Source of the DNA: a virus
IMG/VR virus record: IMGVR_UViG_3300009169_000013
Location: 1 to 32,157 of that record
Reading direction: 5' to 3' (one strand)
DNA length: 32,157 bases
How positions within the stretch are numbered: the first letter of the stretch is position 1; each line of letters starts with the position of its first letter. Shown here piece after piece: positions 5,842-32,157 of this stretch. The notes beneath the pieces are model-generated. The model ran no database searches. It was not told the origin of the DNA and worked only from the letters and a program-made list of their open reading frames with translations. Position numbers and translations under genes: made by a program.

Positions 5842-5902
5842 ACATTTTACTTAGGAACGTTAAATTACGGCTTGTAGGTGGAACACCATACAGTCGGTAA
5901 AA

Positions 5903-5933
5903 AGCACTAGATATACTCTAGTGCTTTTTTTTT
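5903..5933 (+). terminator. Strong rho-independent terminator
   Basis: AGCACTAGA (5903-5911) and TCTAGTGCT (5917-5925) form a perfect 9-bp stem with a TATAC loop. The stem is extendable by A-T pairs and followed by a run of nine T. The upstream A run makes it potentially bidirectional. It closes the capsid/tail-tube transcription unit. Confidence 0.93.
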
Positions 5934-5936
5934 GGA

Positions 5937-5957: not shown

Positions 5958-5990
5958 TAAAACACAAAATAAACCTTTTCCAATATTTAT

Positions 5991-17444: not shown

Positions 17445-17623
17445 ATTACTATATCTTTTAATCGGAAAATACATGTACATTTATACTCTAGAAAATCAAT
17501 TACATTATCGAAATCACTTCTTTTTATTAAGTGTTCGATTATAGCGTATTCTTCTCTGTTGGTCTGTGATAAGACTATTAACTTTCTTGTTAAAAAATCT
17601 ATTCTTTTTAATTCTTCATTCAT
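17441..17623 (-). CDS. Hypothetical protein, 60 residues
   Basis: No family is recognised. The sequence is a short charged helix pair (ELKRIDFLTRKLIVL, EEYAIIEHLIKRSDF), ending with a CTC pair near the C-terminus (EYKCTCIFRL). The start overlaps the 3' end of the HNH gene by 8 bases, and its stop overlaps the next ATG by 4 bases. This is an arrangement expected for coupled translation. Confidence 0.6.
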   Translation of the reverse strand: MNEELKRIDFLTRKLIVLSQTNREEYAIIEHLIKRSDFDNVIDFLEYKCTCIFRLKDIVI

Positions 17624-18125
17624 ATCTCTTTTGGGCTGCTTCTTGGTATGCTCTAGCTGCGTCTTCTTCTGTTGTAAAACAACCTAAATGTCTAACTTTG
17701 CCATCTATGCTAATGTGTGCCAACCATCTTACTACTGAAGGTACGCCCTTGTTAAAGCACTGATGAAGAGAAACACCTATATACTGGCTGGTGTTTTTTC
17801 CATTAGCTTTACGTATTTTAGATATTAAACCGCTACAATGAACTATTTCCAAATTATTCACGGTGTTATCAGATATATCTTTGCTAAGGTGTTTAATAAT
17901 TTCACTGTTATTAGGCTTCCAACCTAACCAATACACCGCAACGAGTTTGTGAACTTGACGTGTAGCATATGTTTTATCATTTCTGAATAGCTTCGCTTTA
18001 TATTTTCCCGTGTCCTTACTTAAATAAAGTTTTAATATTCTGTTATTTTTGGTGTTGCGAACTTGCCCTAAATTACTGATTTCGTAATTAGGGAATTCTG
18101 TTATTACTTTCCATTCTTCTTTCAT
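17616..18125 (-). CDS. HNH homing endonuclease with NUMOD4 and AP2 domains
   Basis: The 169-residue protein has NUMOD4 at ~4-30 (EWKVITEFPNYEISNLGQVR) and an HNH_3-like core. The core includes VHKLVAVYWLG, IIKHLSKD in place of the usual HxDGD, and DNTVNNLEIV at 58-95. An AP2 DNA-binding domain fills 115-169 (YIGVS, WLAHISIDGKVRHLG, EEDAARAYQEAA). It would make a site-specific cut and spread itself, or act as a free-standing nuclease. The HxDG-to-HLSKD change might weaken metal binding. The gene lies among coupled early genes, with a palindrome copy 11 bases upstream of its start. Confidence 0.85.
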   Translation of the reverse strand: MKEEWKVITEFPNYEISNLGQVRNTKNNRILKLYLSKDTGKYKAKLFRNDKTYATRQVHKLVAVYWLGWKPNNSEIIKHLSKDISDNTVNNLEIVHCSGLISKIRKANGKNTSQYIGVSLHQCFNKGVPSVVRWLAHISIDGKVRHLGCFTTEEDAARAYQEAAQKRYE

Positions 18126-18173: not shown

Positions 18174-18197
18174 GGTATGCTACCTTGGTATTCTACC
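18174..18197 (-). repeat. Two GGTA-NNN-TACC palindromes
   Basis: On the + strand, GGTATGCTACC (18174-18184) and GGTATTCTACC (18187-18197) are separated by TT. They end one base from the stop codon of the gene at 18199. The arrangement is nearly the same as at 18654-18677. Confidence 0.85.
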
Positions 18198-18653: not shown

Positions 18654-18677
18654 GGTATGCTACCTTGGTATGTTACC
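18654..18677 (-). repeat. Two GGTA-NNN-TACC palindromes
   Basis: On the + strand, GGTATGCTACC (18654-18664) and GGTATGTTACC (18667-18677) are separated by TT. They lie 5 bases before the stop codon of the gene at 18683. The surrounding bases (CCGTTATAAATCG after the palindromes) match the copy at 18174. Confidence 0.85.
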
Positions 18678-23352: not shown

Positions 23353-23591
23353 TAAAAGGGGAGTTGCGTTGGTGTTTTTGTAATGGCGTTTTTTGATGTT
23401 TTTTCCTCTTATCCCCTTAATTCCTTAATAATTAAATTATACATATAAAATACAGTAAACATTAACAAATATACAATAATGATAAAGATTATATGTATTT
23501 ATATGGTGCTACTGAAACACGAAGGGTTTAGAGTAAAGGGGGAGAAATAAAAAACCCCCACCAACCCAACTATATTTTTCCAATATCTTAT

Positions 23592-24026
23592 ATGAAATCT
23601 ATCACCTTTTTATTAGGTATCATCATAATATCATGTACTCCAACAGCAATTAATGTTGAACCTATAACTGAATATTGCGTATCAATTCCAAAATACGAAC
23701 AGAGCTTATGTTTAGCTGAACCACATGACACTTTAGCAGGTGTTAATCACACCCCGATGATATATGTAGATCGGCTTAACTTAAATAAAAACTTCAAAGA
23801 TTTAACTATGCATTATATGATGATAGTTTCAATCGATGGAGATGTGTACACACTATCAAATTTGAAATATAGTTGTAAAGTTAAATTTGATGATGGTGTG
23901 AATAACACTGGTGTGAATAACACCTCCGAAGTCAAGATACAAGATATGTATTATGTTATTATCAAGCAAGAGTATTTAGATAGTTCCGTTGTTGTGGGCT
24001 TCACAGGTGTGAATGACACACTATAA
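23592..24026 (+). CDS. Small lipoprotein carrying four GVNxT elements
   Basis: The 144-residue protein begins with a short signal peptide and lipobox (TFLLGIIIISC, acylated Cys15), so it would be lipid-anchored in a host membrane. No family is recognised. A lysis spanin or superinfection-exclusion lipoprotein is possible. Four copies of the 15-base palindrome lie in frame: GVNHT at 50-54, GVNNT at 102-106 and 107-111, and GVNDT at 139-143, the last touching the C-terminus. The element makes up 20 of 144 residues. It is the first gene of the rightward late unit and is followed by a hairpin containing another copy. Confidence 0.75.
   Translation: MKSITFLLGIIIISCTPTAINVEPITEYCVSIPKYEQSLCLAEPHDTLAGVNHTPMIYVDRLNLNKNFKDLTMHYMMIVSIDGDVYTLSNLKYSCKVKFDDGVNNTGVNNTSEVKIQDMYYVIIKQEYLDSSVVVGFTGVNDTL
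23739..23753 (+). repeat. In-frame palindrome copy (GVNHT)
   Basis: GGTGTTAATCACACC is identical to the units of the array at 2734-2799, but here it is coding. Confidence 0.92.
23895..23924 (+). repeat. Two direct in-frame palindrome copies (GVNNTGVNNT)
   Basis: GGTGTGAATAACACT (23895-23909) is followed with no spacer by GGTGTGAATAACACC (23910-23924). The first copy has one arm mismatch (ACACT). The 15-base direct duplication keeps the frame. Confidence 0.92.
24006..24020 (+). repeat. Imperfect palindrome copy at the lipoprotein 3' end
   Basis: GGTGTGAATGACACA encodes GVNDT, followed by Leu and the stop. The right arm has lost its last C and the loop ends in G. Confidence 0.75.
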
Positions 24027-24126: not shown

Positions 24127-24173
24127 CCACCAACTATATATAAAACTTTTTTTTTAAAAAGGCCAATATAGAT

Positions 24174-24572
24174 ATGTCAAATAAGAAAAATCACTATGTT
24201 AATCAGAAAAAGCTTTACGTTCAAACAGTTATAAGCCAAGCACTCGGTAAAAAAACACCAGAGCTACTCACTATGCTTTTAAAAATAAACGAGGGAGTAA
24301 ACAGCAAATTCCAGTATTACGGGGGAGATGATGATAGATACGATTGCAAGATGGAAGCACTAGCTGTTTTGTTATCAAATTGGCACACCTTTGATTCGGT
24401 TAATTATATTTCACCATTCCAGTTATTTACTGAGATTTCTAAAAGAGGCCACACCAAGGGACTTGAGATACTTTACGGACAAAAAGGCTTAAAAAAAGAT
24501 GAAAGAAAGACTATATTTTCTCTTGATTTTGTCATGGGAGAGGATGGCGGAAGCATAGGTGATCTATTATAG
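24174..24572 (+). CDS. Putative late sigma factor, T4 gp55-like
   Basis: The 132-residue protein follows the pattern of T4 gp55, which binds host RNA polymerase to start late transcription. HYVNQKKLYVQTVI near the N-terminus corresponds to YVNNKELL in gp55. A middle helix, LLTMLLKINEGVNSKFQYY, precedes the sigma region-2-like core DCKMEALAVLLSNWHTFD, SPFQLFTEISKRG. It is shorter at the C-terminus than T4 gp55 (185 residues). Position at the head of the rightward structural operon agrees with late regulation. A palindrome variant lies in its leader. The match is by motif memory, not by search. Confidence 0.65.
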   Translation: MSNKKNHYVNQKKLYVQTVISQALGKKTPELLTMLLKINEGVNSKFQYYGGDDDRYDCKMEALAVLLSNWHTFDSVNYISPFQLFTEISKRGHTKGLEILYGQKGLKKDERKTIFSLDFVMGEDGGSIGDLL

Positions 24573-24641
24573 GCTAGTGTAGCGATTTCTGTGGCATCTC
24601 AGGCACTTTCTCATATCAAAACATAGCTAGATAAGGGTAGT

Positions 24642-24649
24642 TAAATTTG
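24642..24649 (+). promoter_or_regulatory. Possible Bacteroidetes -7 element (TAAATTTG)
   Basis: TAAATTTG fits the TAnnTTTG -7 consensus of Bacteroidetes promoters. It lies 74 bases before the gene at 24723, in a 150-base gap. No good -33 TTG was found at the expected distance, so this is a weak candidate. Confidence 0.25.
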
Positions 24650-24722
24650 AGGCTGTTAGAAGGCTTTAAAATGCTTAGATAGATTCGGAAAAAACACTAT
24701 TTTAAATATTAATAAATATAGT

Positions 24723-25028
24723 ATGGAAGAATTTAACGAAATATTCAAAAAACTTAAGTGGTCATTTTTGAGGAATTACAAAGATTACACAGACGAAATC
24801 GAGTATTTATTCGAAGCACTGGAATTACTTAATCAAAACATACCAAAGAGATTAACGGACAATGTAATTAATCATGCTGAGGTAGAAGTGATATACGCTA
24901 TACATCTAATGCCAGAGGCAACCATGTGGTTACTTGAAGAGATACTAGCAAAGACAATAGAGTTAGAATTGTATGAAATATCAAAGAATTACAAAATTTT
25001 AATGTTCAAAATTTCACAACCTAACTAG
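24723..25028 (+). CDS. Hypothetical protein, 101 residues
   Basis: No family is recognised. The protein is acidic and helical: EEFNEIFKKLKWSFLRNYKD, then EVEVIYAIHLMPEATMWLLEE and TIELELYEISKNYKIL. It has no membrane segment. It starts a tight run of genes (3 bases before the sigma-like gene at 25032) and may assist transcription or assembly, but its function is unknown. Confidence 0.65.
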   Translation: MEEFNEIFKKLKWSFLRNYKDYTDEIEYLFEALELLNQNIPKRLTDNVINHAEVEVIYAIHLMPEATMWLLEEILAKTIELELYEISKNYKILMFKISQPN

Positions 25029-25031
25029 ACA

Positions 25032-25556
25032 ATGAACGAGTGGATAGAAGAAAATTACAAAATGATCGAGACAATTGCCAAACGAGTGTTGTCCGACCGA
25101 TATGGTGAAGGTATATCAGCATATTATTTACATTTAATTAACAAAGACAAGATACCAGCCAACCCACCAGTGACGACATACTATTTCATGGTAAATTTAA
25201 AAAAACCGAAGTCATCTATAAACTACCAGAAATTCCAGCATAAAATACAAACATTCACTGGTTACGAAGTAATCGAGCATAATGAAGAGAAACTAAATGA
25301 TATGAAAATGGATCTACAGGATCCAACCATGATAGATTTCCTTCACAACAACGACAACAACGAAAAGTGGGTACAAATATACGAGATATTATACAGTAAA
25401 AAAATTAATTTAGATTTATTCGAGCAGCGATTATTTGATTTAATCTTTTATGAAAATCTATCTATAAGAAGTATAGCAAAGTTGACACAATCATCACCGA
25501 GCTGGGTGTATCAAAAAAGGAAAAGTTTGCTCGAAAAAATAAGAGAAGCGTTATGA
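25032..25556 (+). CDS. Sigma-70-like/HTH protein
   Basis: The 174-residue protein resembles a minimal sigma factor. The N-terminal helices (NEWIEENYKMIETIAKRVL, then PPVTTYYFMVNL) occupy the place of region 2. The C-terminal ~45 residues form a region-4-like helix-turn-helix (DLIFYENLSIRSIAKLTQ, SPSWVYQKRKSLLEKI). It may bind a phage promoter or act with the gp55-like protein 460 bases upstream. An alternative is an HTH regulator or terminase-associated protein. The stop overlaps the next ATG by 4 bases. Confidence 0.55.
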   Translation: MNEWIEENYKMIETIAKRVLSDRYGEGISAYYLHLINKDKIPANPPVTTYYFMVNLKKPKSSINYQKFQHKIQTFTGYEVIEHNEEKLNDMKMDLQDPTMIDFLHNNDNNEKWVQIYEILYSKKINLDLFEQRLFDLIFYENLSIRSIAKLTQSSPSWVYQKRKSLLEKIREAL

Positions 25557-28733: not shown

Positions 28734-28788
28734 TATCTACGAAGCAGTAATATAACATATTCCAATCTAATTAAACCAAAATACACAT

Positions 28789-31700
28789 ATGGCTGAAATA
28801 ATTATAATACCAAACTGGTCAGAAGAAGAGAGATATTACTTAGATGGTGATATTGACATGCTTTTAAATTTCAAAATACAAGATTTGAAAGATTTAAAAC
28901 GTGCCAGTACATATACTAAGTCCATAACTGTACCATTTTCAGCTAACAACAATGAAATATTCACTCAAATTTTCAATATAAATGTATTAGCTGGTTTTAA
29001 CCCTAAGAAAAAAAGCGATTGTATTGTCACTGAGGGTGGAGTGTTATTATCTTCTGGTTATTTACAGGTATTAGAGATAGATTTAACTAACAAAGTTTAT
29101 AAATGTGTATACTACGGTGAGAATGGGAACCTATTCGATGACATGGGTGAAAATTACATCACAGGTAATATAGATGCTACCGATAATATTGATTTTGATC
29201 AAGATATACACACACTAAATCAAGCGACCATGGAATCTGCGTGGAATGGCAATGAAAATTATGTATACACGCTAATTCAAGACGAAGTAAATCAACTAAC
29301 TCCCTCAAATTTCACAACAGGTATAGATGCTTACCGTTGGAAGATGATGTATAATGCAAAAAAAATATTTGATAGTATATTTATTAAACATGGTTATTCA
29401 TACAACTCCGATTTTTTAAACTCAGAAGACTTCACTAAACTATTTATTCTACCTGCTCTAACTACATCGGTTGGTGAACCATATGTACAGTGGAACAGAG
29501 ACCCATTATATAATCAACTTTTGGGTACAACTAACGATTCAGTGGTTCCAGAACTAACTAATCAAATAACAGATATAGTAGGTGGTAGCTATAACAGCAC
29601 AACTAACCGATTCAAAGTACCAGTAAAGGGTAAGTATCTTTCAACTGGTACAATAAATTTTTATAGATTAGGCCAAACGGTAAAGCTACCTACAATTAAC
29701 CCATTAGATAGTATAAAAGTAACATATAACATATATCGTGGTAACACACTAATATTTACGGACAAAATAGCACCTAATAAATTAGCACCAAAGGGTTATG
29801 ATGGTACTAATTGGTTGTATAATATGGTGTACAACTATCAGTGGAATAATGCTAATATATTTTCAGCTCAAAATTTATTACCTAATGATGAGATTGAGTT
29901 CGTTGTAACATGTGTGTACAATAACTCGCCTAATTCATATTTCATATCTAAGGCAGATATATCTGTACAAAGTTCAGTGTATGGTATTAACCCAGCATTT
30001 AATTTCTTAAATATTAAGCAAAAAGATTTCATAGGTGATATGTTTAAGATGTTTAATCTTTATATCACTCAAGATAAGACAAAGATAAGACATTTCTTAA
30101 TAGAACCACGAGACGCTTTTTATAAAAGTGGTAGAGTTGTAAGTGATTTACAATATGACGTATCTGATGTTGTTAATTTATCAACTTTAACTGACTTAAG
30201 TAACCAATCGTGGTTATTTACATATGCAAAAGGGGACGATTTATTTAATAAACAATTCTCCGAAGAGTATTCTGGAAGAGTATATGGTGATGTAAAAGTA
30301 GAGTTAGATATCGATTTTTTGAATGGTGAGAAGAAAATTGAGTTAAACGCTGTACCAACTATATTTCAAAATCAGTTCAGTAATGTATCACTTCCAAATG
30401 TAACAGAAGGAACTAAAGAAGGTGTGTTACGCTATGCGGTGTATGAAGGTTTCACGGAATTTAACCCACCACTTGTTGCCACATATAAATTTTATGGTGG
30501 TACAAGTGCTACATATAGCTCATTCCCACTATTTAATGATGACCCTATATTGTTCGCTAGTGTTTCAGATCAGTTAGACAGAGAAGATAGTTTATATTAC
30601 AACTATTACGAGAACGAAATTGAGACCTATGCGACACCTAGATCACATATTTTAACGTTAAATGTTAGAATTAATACAAAAATATTCACAAATTTTAATT
30701 TTAATGATGTTTTTTATTTTGAAATAGCTGACAATGCTGGCTATTATACATTATTATCAATAGATAATTACAACCCGACTGAAGATCAAGTCGTTAAGAT
30801 GACATTCCTAACATATTTTGGAAATGAAACTATACGCCCAATTTACAAACGTAAAAGATTTCCACTTTTTGGTAAAACAGATAGTGTAGGTAGAATTAAC
30901 AGAGGTGGTAAGATATATGTCGATGATGGTAACTATGATTTGAATTTTGTCGAGAACTATTCGGGAGGAGTAGTAGTAGGTAGAGATATAGTTATAGTAG
31001 GTGATACAAAAGACCCAATACTATTTGGTGATAATATAATAGTAGCACAAGGAGTTCAAAACCCTGTTGTGATGGGCGGTAGTGATATCTACATAGACGC
31101 TGATAATGTATCTATCGCTGGTTCTAATGGCGGCACATATAGCATACCAAACACATTCAACTTCGGCACACAAAACCCAGTACTGAGAAACACCATCACA
31201 TTAACTGAAATAACACCAACCGAAGGTATGATAGGTTATTCTACTTATTCAACTCCAGAGGTTTATTCAACAGGTCTTGCAATATATGAAGATGGTGAAT
31301 GGAAGCGCATCGGTGGAACTGGTGTTAGTGGTTCGAGCGGCACATCAGGCACATCAGGTGTAGATGGAAGTAGTGGCACAAGTGGTATAAGTGGCAGTAG
31401 CGGTAGCTCTGGTACTAGCGGAATCTCTGGCTCAAGCGGCTCTAGTGGAACTAGTGGCACATCAGGTTCCAGCGGTACATCAGGTCTAAATGGTAGTTCA
31501 GGAACTAGTGGAATATCAGGTTCCAGTGGCACATCGGGCACAAATGGCTCTAGCGGCACATCAGGCACATCAGGCACAAGCTTCTTGGTTGAAACTGTTT
31601 ATCAATTTGACCCATATTCAGGCTTAATTACTACTGCTGCTGACCGTGAATACGTTTTTTTAAATAACACACCTTGGGACGGTTTTATTACATCTCTAAC

Positions 31701-32157
31701 AACTGAAACAGAAGCTGGTTTTTGTGATATAGCAGTGCTAATCAATGGTGCAACCGCAACTGGTTTCGCCACTTCAAGTACCACATCACAAGCTGTTATA
31801 ACAGGTTCAGTTTCTTTCACAACAACTGATGATTTAAGTATATTAATATCGAATAATTCAAGTGCAACAGATCTAAATTACACGGTTGTTTTACAAAGAG
31901 ATGCTAATTTAGCTCAATCTGGTGCGGGAACTGGTTCGAGTGGCACTAGTGGCACAAGCGGTATAAATGGTAGTTCAGGAACTAGCGGAATATCAGGTTC
32001 GAGTGGAACTAGCGGCACATCAGGTATTGATGGTACTAGCGGTTCTAGCGGTAGCTCAGGCACTAGCGGAATATCAGGTTCTAGCGGCACATCAGGTATT
32101 GATGGCACTAGCGGTTCTAGCGGTAGCTCAGGCACTAGCGGAATATCAGGTTCTAGC
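28789..32157 (+). CDS. Large tail protein with Gly-X-Y repeats; runs off the right end
   Basis: The frame starts at ATG 28789 and is open to the window end; through the 103-base overlap it continues to the stop at 628, for 1297 residues. The N-terminal ~840 residues are globular: EIIIIPNWSEEERYYLDGDI, then STYTKSITVPFSANNNEIF, FNPKKKSDCIV and VYKCVYYGENGNLFDDM. This N-terminal pattern recurs in tail/baseplate proteins of Bacteroidetes phages. Gly-X-Y repeats begin near residue 841. A duplicated ~110-residue beta module follows (FLVETVYQFDPY to VLQRDANL, about 930-1042), then more Gly-X-Y and a C-terminal beta domain. Position between terminase and tape measure and the shared fibre module suggest a baseplate-fibre protein. 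It is partial only because of the window end. Confidence 0.85.
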   Translation, partial: MAEIIIIPNWSEEERYYLDGDIDMLLNFKIQDLKDLKRASTYTKSITVPFSANNNEIFTQIFNINVLAGFNPKKKSDCIVTEGGVLLSSGYLQVLEIDLTNKVYKCVYYGENGNLFDDMGENYITGNIDATDNIDFDQDIHTLNQATMESAWNGNENYVYTLIQDEVNQLTPSNFTTGIDAYRWKMMYNAKKIFDSIFIKHGYSYNSDFLNSEDFTKLFILPALTTSVGEPYVQWNRDPLYNQLLGTTNDSVVPELTNQITDIVGGSYNSTTNRFKVPVKGKYLSTGTINFYRLGQTVKLPTINPLDSIKVTYNIYRGNTLIFTDKIAPNKLAPKGYDGTNWLYNMVYNYQWNNANIFSAQNLLPNDEIEFVVTCVYNNSPNSYFISKADISVQSSVYGINPAFNFLNIKQKDFIGDMFKMFNLYITQDKTKIRHFLIEPRDAFYKSGRVVSDLQYDVSDVVNLSTLTDLSNQSWLFTYAKGDDLFNKQFSEEYSGRVYGDVKVELDIDFLNGEKKIELNAVPTIFQNQFSNVSLPNVTEGTKEGVLRYAVYEGFTEFNPPLVATYKFYGGTSATYSSFPLFNDDPILFASVSDQLDREDSLYYNYYENEIETYATPRSHILTLNVRINTKIFTNFNFNDVFYFEIADNAGYYTLLSIDNYNPTEDQVVKMTFLTYFGNETIRPIYKRKRFPLFGKTDSVGRINRGGKIYVDDGNYDLNFVENYSGGVVVGRDIVIVGDTKDPILFGDNIIVAQGVQNPVVMGGSDIYIDADNVSIAGSNGGTYSIPNTFNFGTQNPVLRNTITLTEITPTEGMIGYSTYSTPEVYSTGLAIYEDGEWKRIGGTGVSGSSGTSGTSGVDGSSGTSGISGSSGSSGTSGISGSSGSSGTSGTSGSSGTSGLNGSSGTSGISGSSGTSGTNGSSGTSGTSGTSFLVETVYQFDPYSGLITTAADREYVFLNNTPWDGFITSLTTETEAGFCDIAVLINGATATGFATSSTTSQAVITGSVSFTTTDDLSILISNNSSATDLNYTVVLQRDANLAQSGAGTGSSGTSGTSGINGSSGTSGISGSSGTSGTSGIDGTSGSSGSSGTSGISGSSGTSGIDGTSGSSGSSGTSGISGSS
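31312..31577 (+). repeat. Gly-X-Y coding block before the duplicated module
   Basis: Irregular 9- and 18-base repeats encode GVSGSSGTSG and related triplets with no proline. It is the left bracket of the module at 31580-31910. Confidence 0.9.
31580..31910 (+). repeat. Second copy of the ~110-codon beta module
   Basis: The encoded segment differs from the fibre-1 module at about 26 of 110 positions by eye, so about 76 percent identity. Conserved stretches include SQAVITGSVSF and NNSSATDLNYT. The DNA is also clearly related, so the duplication or exchange is fairly recent. Confidence 0.88.
31917..32157 (+). repeat. Gly-X-Y tandem repeat with 72-base period at the right end
   Basis: The same 18-base steps as at the left end build a nearly perfect 72-base super-unit, which is why the contig could break or close here. 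Unit number is uncertain from short-read-type assembly. Confidence 0.9.
32055..32157. repeat. Terminal direct repeat, right copy
   Basis: Identical to bases 1-103. The frame of the gene at 28789 places base 32055 at a third codon position, and base 1 has the same phase in the gene ending at 628. The join is therefore in frame. Confidence 0.8.

Follow-up and report, generated by a model that had tools for sequence, protein, structure and literature searches.

A phage genome of about 32 kb carries, side by side in its late unit, a protein of the T4 gp55 family and a sigma-70-family protein with a well-supported region 4. We propose that the two form a late-transcription module that, acting together or in parallel, brings the host RNA polymerase to phage late promoters, a reading to which we assign a probability of roughly 55%. 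gp55-driven late transcription has been described in T4-like phages with their own clamp and replisome, and this late-gene switch is known mainly from giant phages. The pair described here suggests a compact version of the switch, with gp55 in a genome about one fifth the size of that of T4, no recognised phage clamp, and a region-4 protein as its partner.

The window, i.e., the whole stretch of DNA analysed, is the entire IMG/VR record IMGVR_UViG_3300009169_000013 (32,157 bases). The record carries a 103-base terminal repeat and a tail gene continues in frame across the join, so that we regard the genome, of about 32.05 kb, as probably complete. Since the repeat sits inside a collagen-like repeat, closure is likely, if short of proven. 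The tail gene (31263-32157 and 1-180) encodes collagen-like GSSGTSG repeats that enclose the closing terminal repeat, and its repeat length may be collapsed. Matches to the 35.7-kb Nonlabens phage P12024L, a siphovirus, were obtained for the genes of the protease, the capsid, the portal and the terminase, which points to a small tailed phage. Judging from the hosts of relatives, the host would belong to the Bacteroidota. Pfam and PHROG scans recognised no sliding clamp or DNA polymerase in the window proteins they covered; weak matches could escape such scans.

Three consecutive open frames make up the locus:

24174-24572, + strand: gp55-family late sigma with sigma region 2 only, 132 aa (PHROG 234, T4-free profile, fold)
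24723-25028, + strand: small gene between the pair, 101 aa, no known family (no Pfam or NCBIfam match)
25032-25556, + strand: sigma-70-family protein with region 4, 174 aa (TIGR02937, C-terminal part, homologs)

The earlier note had described two neighbouring sigma-like proteins, parted by one small gene, at the head of the late unit of a small siphovirus, and this layout holds up. In the window's late unit, one small ORF (23592-24026) precedes the gp55-like gene; in the relative G004, introduced below, gp55 comes first and a different small gene separates the pair. The terminal repeat and the P12024L-like structural genes agree with a small siphovirus.

Several further elements were observed in the window. 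The minus-strand gene at 17616-18125 encodes an HNH endonuclease and is likely a mobile, homing-type gene; its relative in G004 is part of the late unit and lies downstream of the portal. The palindrome GGTGTKANTMACACC occurs in 11 exact copies (0.045 expected in Markov sequence), mostly intergenic (2734-2799, 3928, 5278, 11536, 18137, 23739, 23910 and 24045), including four tandem copies at 17-base steps upstream of gene 2839. It may be an operator, a replication element or a mobile element. Members of a second short palindrome family, GGTAnnnTACC (18174-18197, 18654-18677 and 23183), cluster upstream of minus-strand genes.

A gp55-family protein in a small genome

The protein encoded at 24174 belongs to the T4 gp55 family and has the fold of sigma region 2. 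It matched PHROG 234 ('late sigma transcription factor') with E = 1.9e-4, and six of the seven aligned members, the window protein included, matched the same family (best E = 7e-13). A profile of eight homologs, with T4 left out, retrieved T4 gp55 (7d7c_F) from the PDB at E = 4.2e-5, the one other row standing at E = 1. The same chain, T4 gp55 in the late open complex, was the top fold match of the predicted structure (Z = 12.4, 1.9 Å over 102 residues), followed by the next row and other sigma chains at Z = 9.6 and below; the model was built from 20 sequences and its helices are confident.

Homologs detected by tblastn were found in 23 phage records (best E = 5e-13), and among the matches listed (20 of 23 annotated phage records) lengths ranged from 219 to 735 kb. 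T4 gp55 itself matched 1,956 records, of which 40 listed at even steps were at least 144 kb long, except for one short partial record. Ten small Bacteroidota phages (34.7-54.3 kb) gave no gp55 match, IMG/VR scans with single proteins (the products of 24174 and 25032, the portal protein and the terminase) found nothing, and a search of genome contigs with the gp55 alignment returned 219 stretches, none of them confirmed.

PMC7892883 describes residues E70, D74 and E77 in helix 3 of T4 gp55 as touching the beta' clamp helices. In a pairwise alignment, these acidic residues align to D57, E61 and A64 of the window protein, two of the three being acidic. Of the helix-loop-helix that follows region 2, the model shows just a low-confidence helix at residues 108-114; the protein is short. 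It ends in a further candidate element:

24516-24569, + strand: C-terminal tail FSLDFVMGEDGGSIGDLL, a possible clamp-binding motif (likeness to the T4 gp55 tail; low model confidence)

Its SLDFVMGE resembles the SLDFLYE of T4, whose translated stretch ends in SLDFLYEAND. Tails of gp55 proteins from large phages are conserved yet different (e.g., LISIEGSNDGMGLHSL), and the G004 tail reads EIEFIRFEDLLNQQ. If the tail of the window protein works, its partner could be the host clamp, a candidate because no phage clamp was recognised.

The second sigma-like protein and its relatives

Region 4 in the protein encoded at 25032 is well supported. Over its full length the protein matched NCBIfam TIGR02937 (sigma70-ECF) at E = 3.5e-7, with residues 3-174 on positions 5-165 of the 165-position profile and a score below the curated cut-off (30.0 versus 42.9 bits). 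The C-terminal 65 aa alone gave E = 4.3e-6, region 4 being the last 48 residues, and further matches were obtained with PHROG 351 (sigma factor; E = 8.6e-5) and with region 4 of FliA in the PDB (E = 0.0095). PHROGs 351 and 1740 (sigma factor) as well as PHROG 36 ('transcriptional regulator') match this protein or its homologs. The profile searches thus put the two proteins in gp55 and sigma families and neither in an unrelated one, in keeping with the gp55-like protein and the region-4-like end that had been read from the letters.

25032-25406, + strand: N-terminal part, unrecognised but conserved in relatives, possibly a divergent region 2 (block of invariant residues in the alignment)

These N-terminal two thirds add just 3.6 bits to the whole-protein score. 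Pieces of them alone had no match in NCBIfam or Pfam, and a three-sequence profile of this part found nothing of note in the PDB. The homolog in G002 also aligns to TIGR02937 from end to end; that in G004 is covered at 104-182 only. Because its whole length aligns to the profile of a complete ECF sigma, the protein may be a complete sigma factor, its N-terminal part possibly being a worn region 2. A profile-profile comparison (RpoE plus P12024L gp35) aligned region 4 alone, and a single-sequence AlphaFold model (mean pLDDT 42) was unusable.

Relatives were collected through the capsid protein, a scan that yielded six close records with capsids 80-90% identical. Both proteins were sought in whole records at 28 of 80 capsid-relative loci (L189-L268), and by profile in the fetched stretches of L109-L280. 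Among the 28 loci searched whole, three carry a homolog of the second protein (44-49% identity), namely G004 (IMGVR_UViG_3300047557_002182, L273; 30.8 kb), G002 (L275) and G001. A scan with an alignment of three 25032-type sequences recovered the same three records and nothing further, and tblastn in phages gave no homolog, with one weak match when run at E 10.

gp55 was found in one of the 28 loci, G004 (30% identity, E = 3e-12; PHROG 234 at E = 3.7e-9). There the pair is conserved in order: gp55, first gene of the plus-strand unit and facing a divergent unit, is followed by one small gene, the sigma-like gene and then the late genes of the window with insertions. The second protein of G004 is 49% and its capsid 80% identical to those of the window. 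The intervening gene of G004 encodes an unrelated-looking, zinc-ribbon-like protein of 121 aa; the small gene is not conserved. In the sequence of G001 and G002, both of them incomplete contigs, gp55 was not found, profile searches included; in G002 this covers 2.5 kb upstream of the sigma-like gene. A 456-aa late-strand ORF (133-1503) lies in that region of G002, near the place of gp55 in the window and G004. It had no meaningful match in Pfam, NCBIfam or the PDB, and its IHDS motif might hint at a polymerase.

A late-gene motif and how the pair may act

The window and its relatives share a motif before late genes, T[AC]CAATAT, placed 4-5 bases before the ATG, with GAAGCA 14 bases further upstream. 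It is clearest in G004, where TACAATAT stands at this distance at six of eight sites (five of seven on the late strand), compared with three of four in G002. The window form, [TG]CCAATAT, keeps this spacing at three of five sites (genes 5991, 23592 and gp55), and one bipartite site is orthologous between the window and G004. The window features are:

5900-5934, + strand: hairpin and T run resembling an intrinsic terminator, upstream of the 5979 motif (read from the sequence)
5979-5986, + strand: TCCAATAT, 4 bases before the ATG of gene 5991, behind the terminator-like hairpin (motif search, sequence)
23579-23586, + strand: TCCAATAT, 5 bases before the ATG of ORF 23592 (motif search)
24162-24169, + strand: GCCAATAT, 4 bases before the ATG of the gp55-like gene (motif search)
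28741-28766, + strand: GAAGCA-N14-TCCAAT, upstream of tail gene 28789 (motif search)

The G004 ortholog of the tail gene, 9048, is preceded by the variant AAAGCA-N14-TACAATAT, the fifth bipartite site of that genome. The pattern GAAGC-N14-16-[TG][AC]CAAT occurred four times in G004 (0.15 expected) and once in the window (0.12 expected); the -35-like GAAGC element is present at none of the G002 sites and at one of the four window sites. At three orthologs (5991, G004 18194 and G002 14638) the motif follows a terminator-like hairpin. In control loci where the pair was not found, the ATG spacing stayed at chance level: the 74 distant capsid-relative loci showed it at 7 of their 214 sites, the 80 protease-relative loci at 2 of 137. 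One copy in G004 lies within the head protease gene; the ATG of this TACAATAT-N4-ATG is in frame, an arrangement that would suit a scaffold protein started internally.

Other promoter candidates were rejected. A weight matrix from G004 and G002 scored the window sites no higher than shuffled sequence, generic sigma-70 promoters numbered 42 in the window against 47.6 in shuffles, and the T4 late octamer TATAAATA, with seven exact copies over both strands, is not a common element; a single copy stands directly before a late gene (2827, +).

We read T[AC]CAATAT as a putative late promoter. If transcription starts at the ATG, the motif would lie at about -12 to -5, close to the T4 late element at -13 to -6.

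As a yardstick, we took 80 IMG/VR loci from large phages that carry the most closely related gp55 genes (L012-L091). Here the octamer AATATATA was present in 231 of 559 upstream stretches (41%; shuffled mean 25.5). Two control sets had it in 4 of 523 and in 14 of 564 stretches; they are less AT-rich (0.59 and 0.72 versus 0.80), a difference in composition for which the shuffles allow. Most copies of the octamer fall into two classes, 4-5 bases (79 of the 231) or about 16-33 bases from the ATG, as expected if transcription starts 4-5 bases after the octamer. AATATATA is a candidate late promoter that would give rise to leaderless and short-leader messages. Since 5 of 14 AATATATA sites in distant capsid-relative loci also lie 4-5 bases before an ATG, this spacing is not unique to gp55 phages. 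No -35 signal beyond A-richness was seen upstream of the octamer in the large gp55 phages, and TATAAATA was at background there (27 versus 26.4 in shuffled stretches). In the window, AATATATA is not enriched (2 versus 7.1 expected), although the minus-strand gene 18570 has a copy 4 bases ahead of it. The large gp55 phage loci searched held no homolog of the second protein (best E = 0.073).

In the mechanism that we propose, the product of 24174 would act as a short gp55-type factor that binds the core of the host RNA polymerase, alongside a member of the sigma-70 family whose region 4 is genuine and whose region 2 is probably worn. The pair would turn the polymerase to promoters with T[AC]CAATAT roughly 12 to 5 bases ahead of the start codon and a GAAGCA-like element 14 bases upstream, and many late transcripts would begin at the ATG itself, i.e., be leaderless. 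The second protein would read the bipartite promoter and gp55 would serve as a second specificity factor. This assignment appears likelier because the motif accompanies the second protein in each of the three genomes, whereas gp55 turned up in two of them, and because the motif has a clear -35-like part in one genome. As the motif is present in G001 and G002 and no gp55 was found in their sequence, gp55 may be dispensable for the motif or may lie in the missing part of the contigs.

The strongest alternative, which we nonetheless consider unlikely, is the split sigma suggested by the earlier note. Here gp55 would supply region 2 (core clamp and -10 element) and the second protein region 4 (beta flap and -35 element); the N-terminal part of the latter would be a joining adaptor, as in gp55 plus gp33 of T4 but with true reading of the -35 element. 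The genes adjoin in an order conserved in G004, region 4 is missing from gp55 and present in its neighbour, whose N-terminal part is unrecognisable as region 2, G004 has a two-element promoter-like motif, and the large gp55 phages lack a -35 signal upstream of AATATATA; all of this suits a divided factor. Against it, TIGR02937 spans both the window protein and its G002 homolog end to end, and G001 and G002 have the motif and a homolog of the second protein where gp55 was not found. We regard two separate sigma proteins as somewhat likelier, for two reasons: the motif is present in a relative whose searched sequence yielded no gp55, and the full ECF profile covers the second protein from end to end. 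Of the earlier sigma-pair reading, the gp55-like protein, the region 4 and the shared motif before late genes stand, whereas two halves of one sigma are the less likely reading, given the alignment with a complete ECF profile. The fullest form of that idea, in which the second protein has a new adaptor domain besides region 4, late promoters have regained a -35 element (GAAGCA-N14-T[AC]CAATAT), late messages are leaderless and the host clamp possibly stands in for a phage clamp, is doubtful.

Somewhat less probable still is that the motif is a translation-start signal rather than a promoter and that both proteins act elsewhere. The near-fixed spacing of 4-5 bases to the ATG and the G004 copy within the protease gene, which is followed by an ATG in frame, would fit such a signal, but the GAAGCA element, at a constant 14 bases upstream of the motif, is too distant to serve the ribosome, and the terminator-like hairpins ahead of the motif call for a promoter behind them. 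Moreover, the motif stays at chance level in other phages with related structural genes, and the two distances of the large-phage octamer from the ATG, 4-5 or about 16-33 bases, are what a transcription start site would dictate. Finally, a region-4-type regulator (anti-sigma or activator) in place of a sigma, with gp55 alone directing late transcription, would suit the sub-threshold score of 25032 and the PHROG 36 matches of its homologs, yet is improbable given the sigma factor matches to PHROGs 351 and 1740 and the full-length collinearity with the ECF profile.

Comparison with known systems

If the proposed module is real, it offers a small system in which to study the separation of region 2 from region 4 and to learn whether a phage clamp is dispensable for gp55. 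The predicted late promoters of this group, together with AATATATA for the large gp55 phages, are testable predictions.

In the open literature searched on gp55 in siphoviruses or Bacteroidetes phages and on leaderless late promoters, titles and abstract beginnings name no such pair. For 'group 2' jumbo phages, the accessible portion of PMC7824862 reports single-HTH and fuller sigma types as well as gp33 orthologs, and describes no 32-kb phage. In P12024L, gp35 occupies a place similar to that of the second protein, upstream of the terminase, but the two share no significant BLAST similarity and P12024L has no gp55 match. ECF sigmas (TIGR02937) resemble the second protein in region 4 and in collinear length, and differ from it in that its region 2 is not detectable alone.

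The closest gp55 proteins, 28-37% identical among the matches listed, come from large phages (Lak, PAU and uncultured phages of 462-735 kb), whose IMG/VR relatives share the leaderless-like spacing of an octamer; that octamer is AATATATA rather than T[AC]CAATAT, and no homolog of the second protein was found in the loci searched. Within the T4 system, gp55 and gp33 have been described as a split sigma (PMC2988020), in which gp33, according to PMC7892883, contacts the DNA backbone only. The second protein would likewise sit at the beta flap, but unlike gp33 it matches sigma region 4 and sigma profiles. The window protein at 24174 shares with T4 gp55 the family and fold of sigma region 2, the lack of region 4 and possibly a clamp-like tail. 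It is shorter (132 aa versus 185 translated for T4) and is encoded in a 32-kb genome that has no recognised phage polymerase or clamp and that, in contrast to the T4 late system, pairs gp55 with a region-4 protein.
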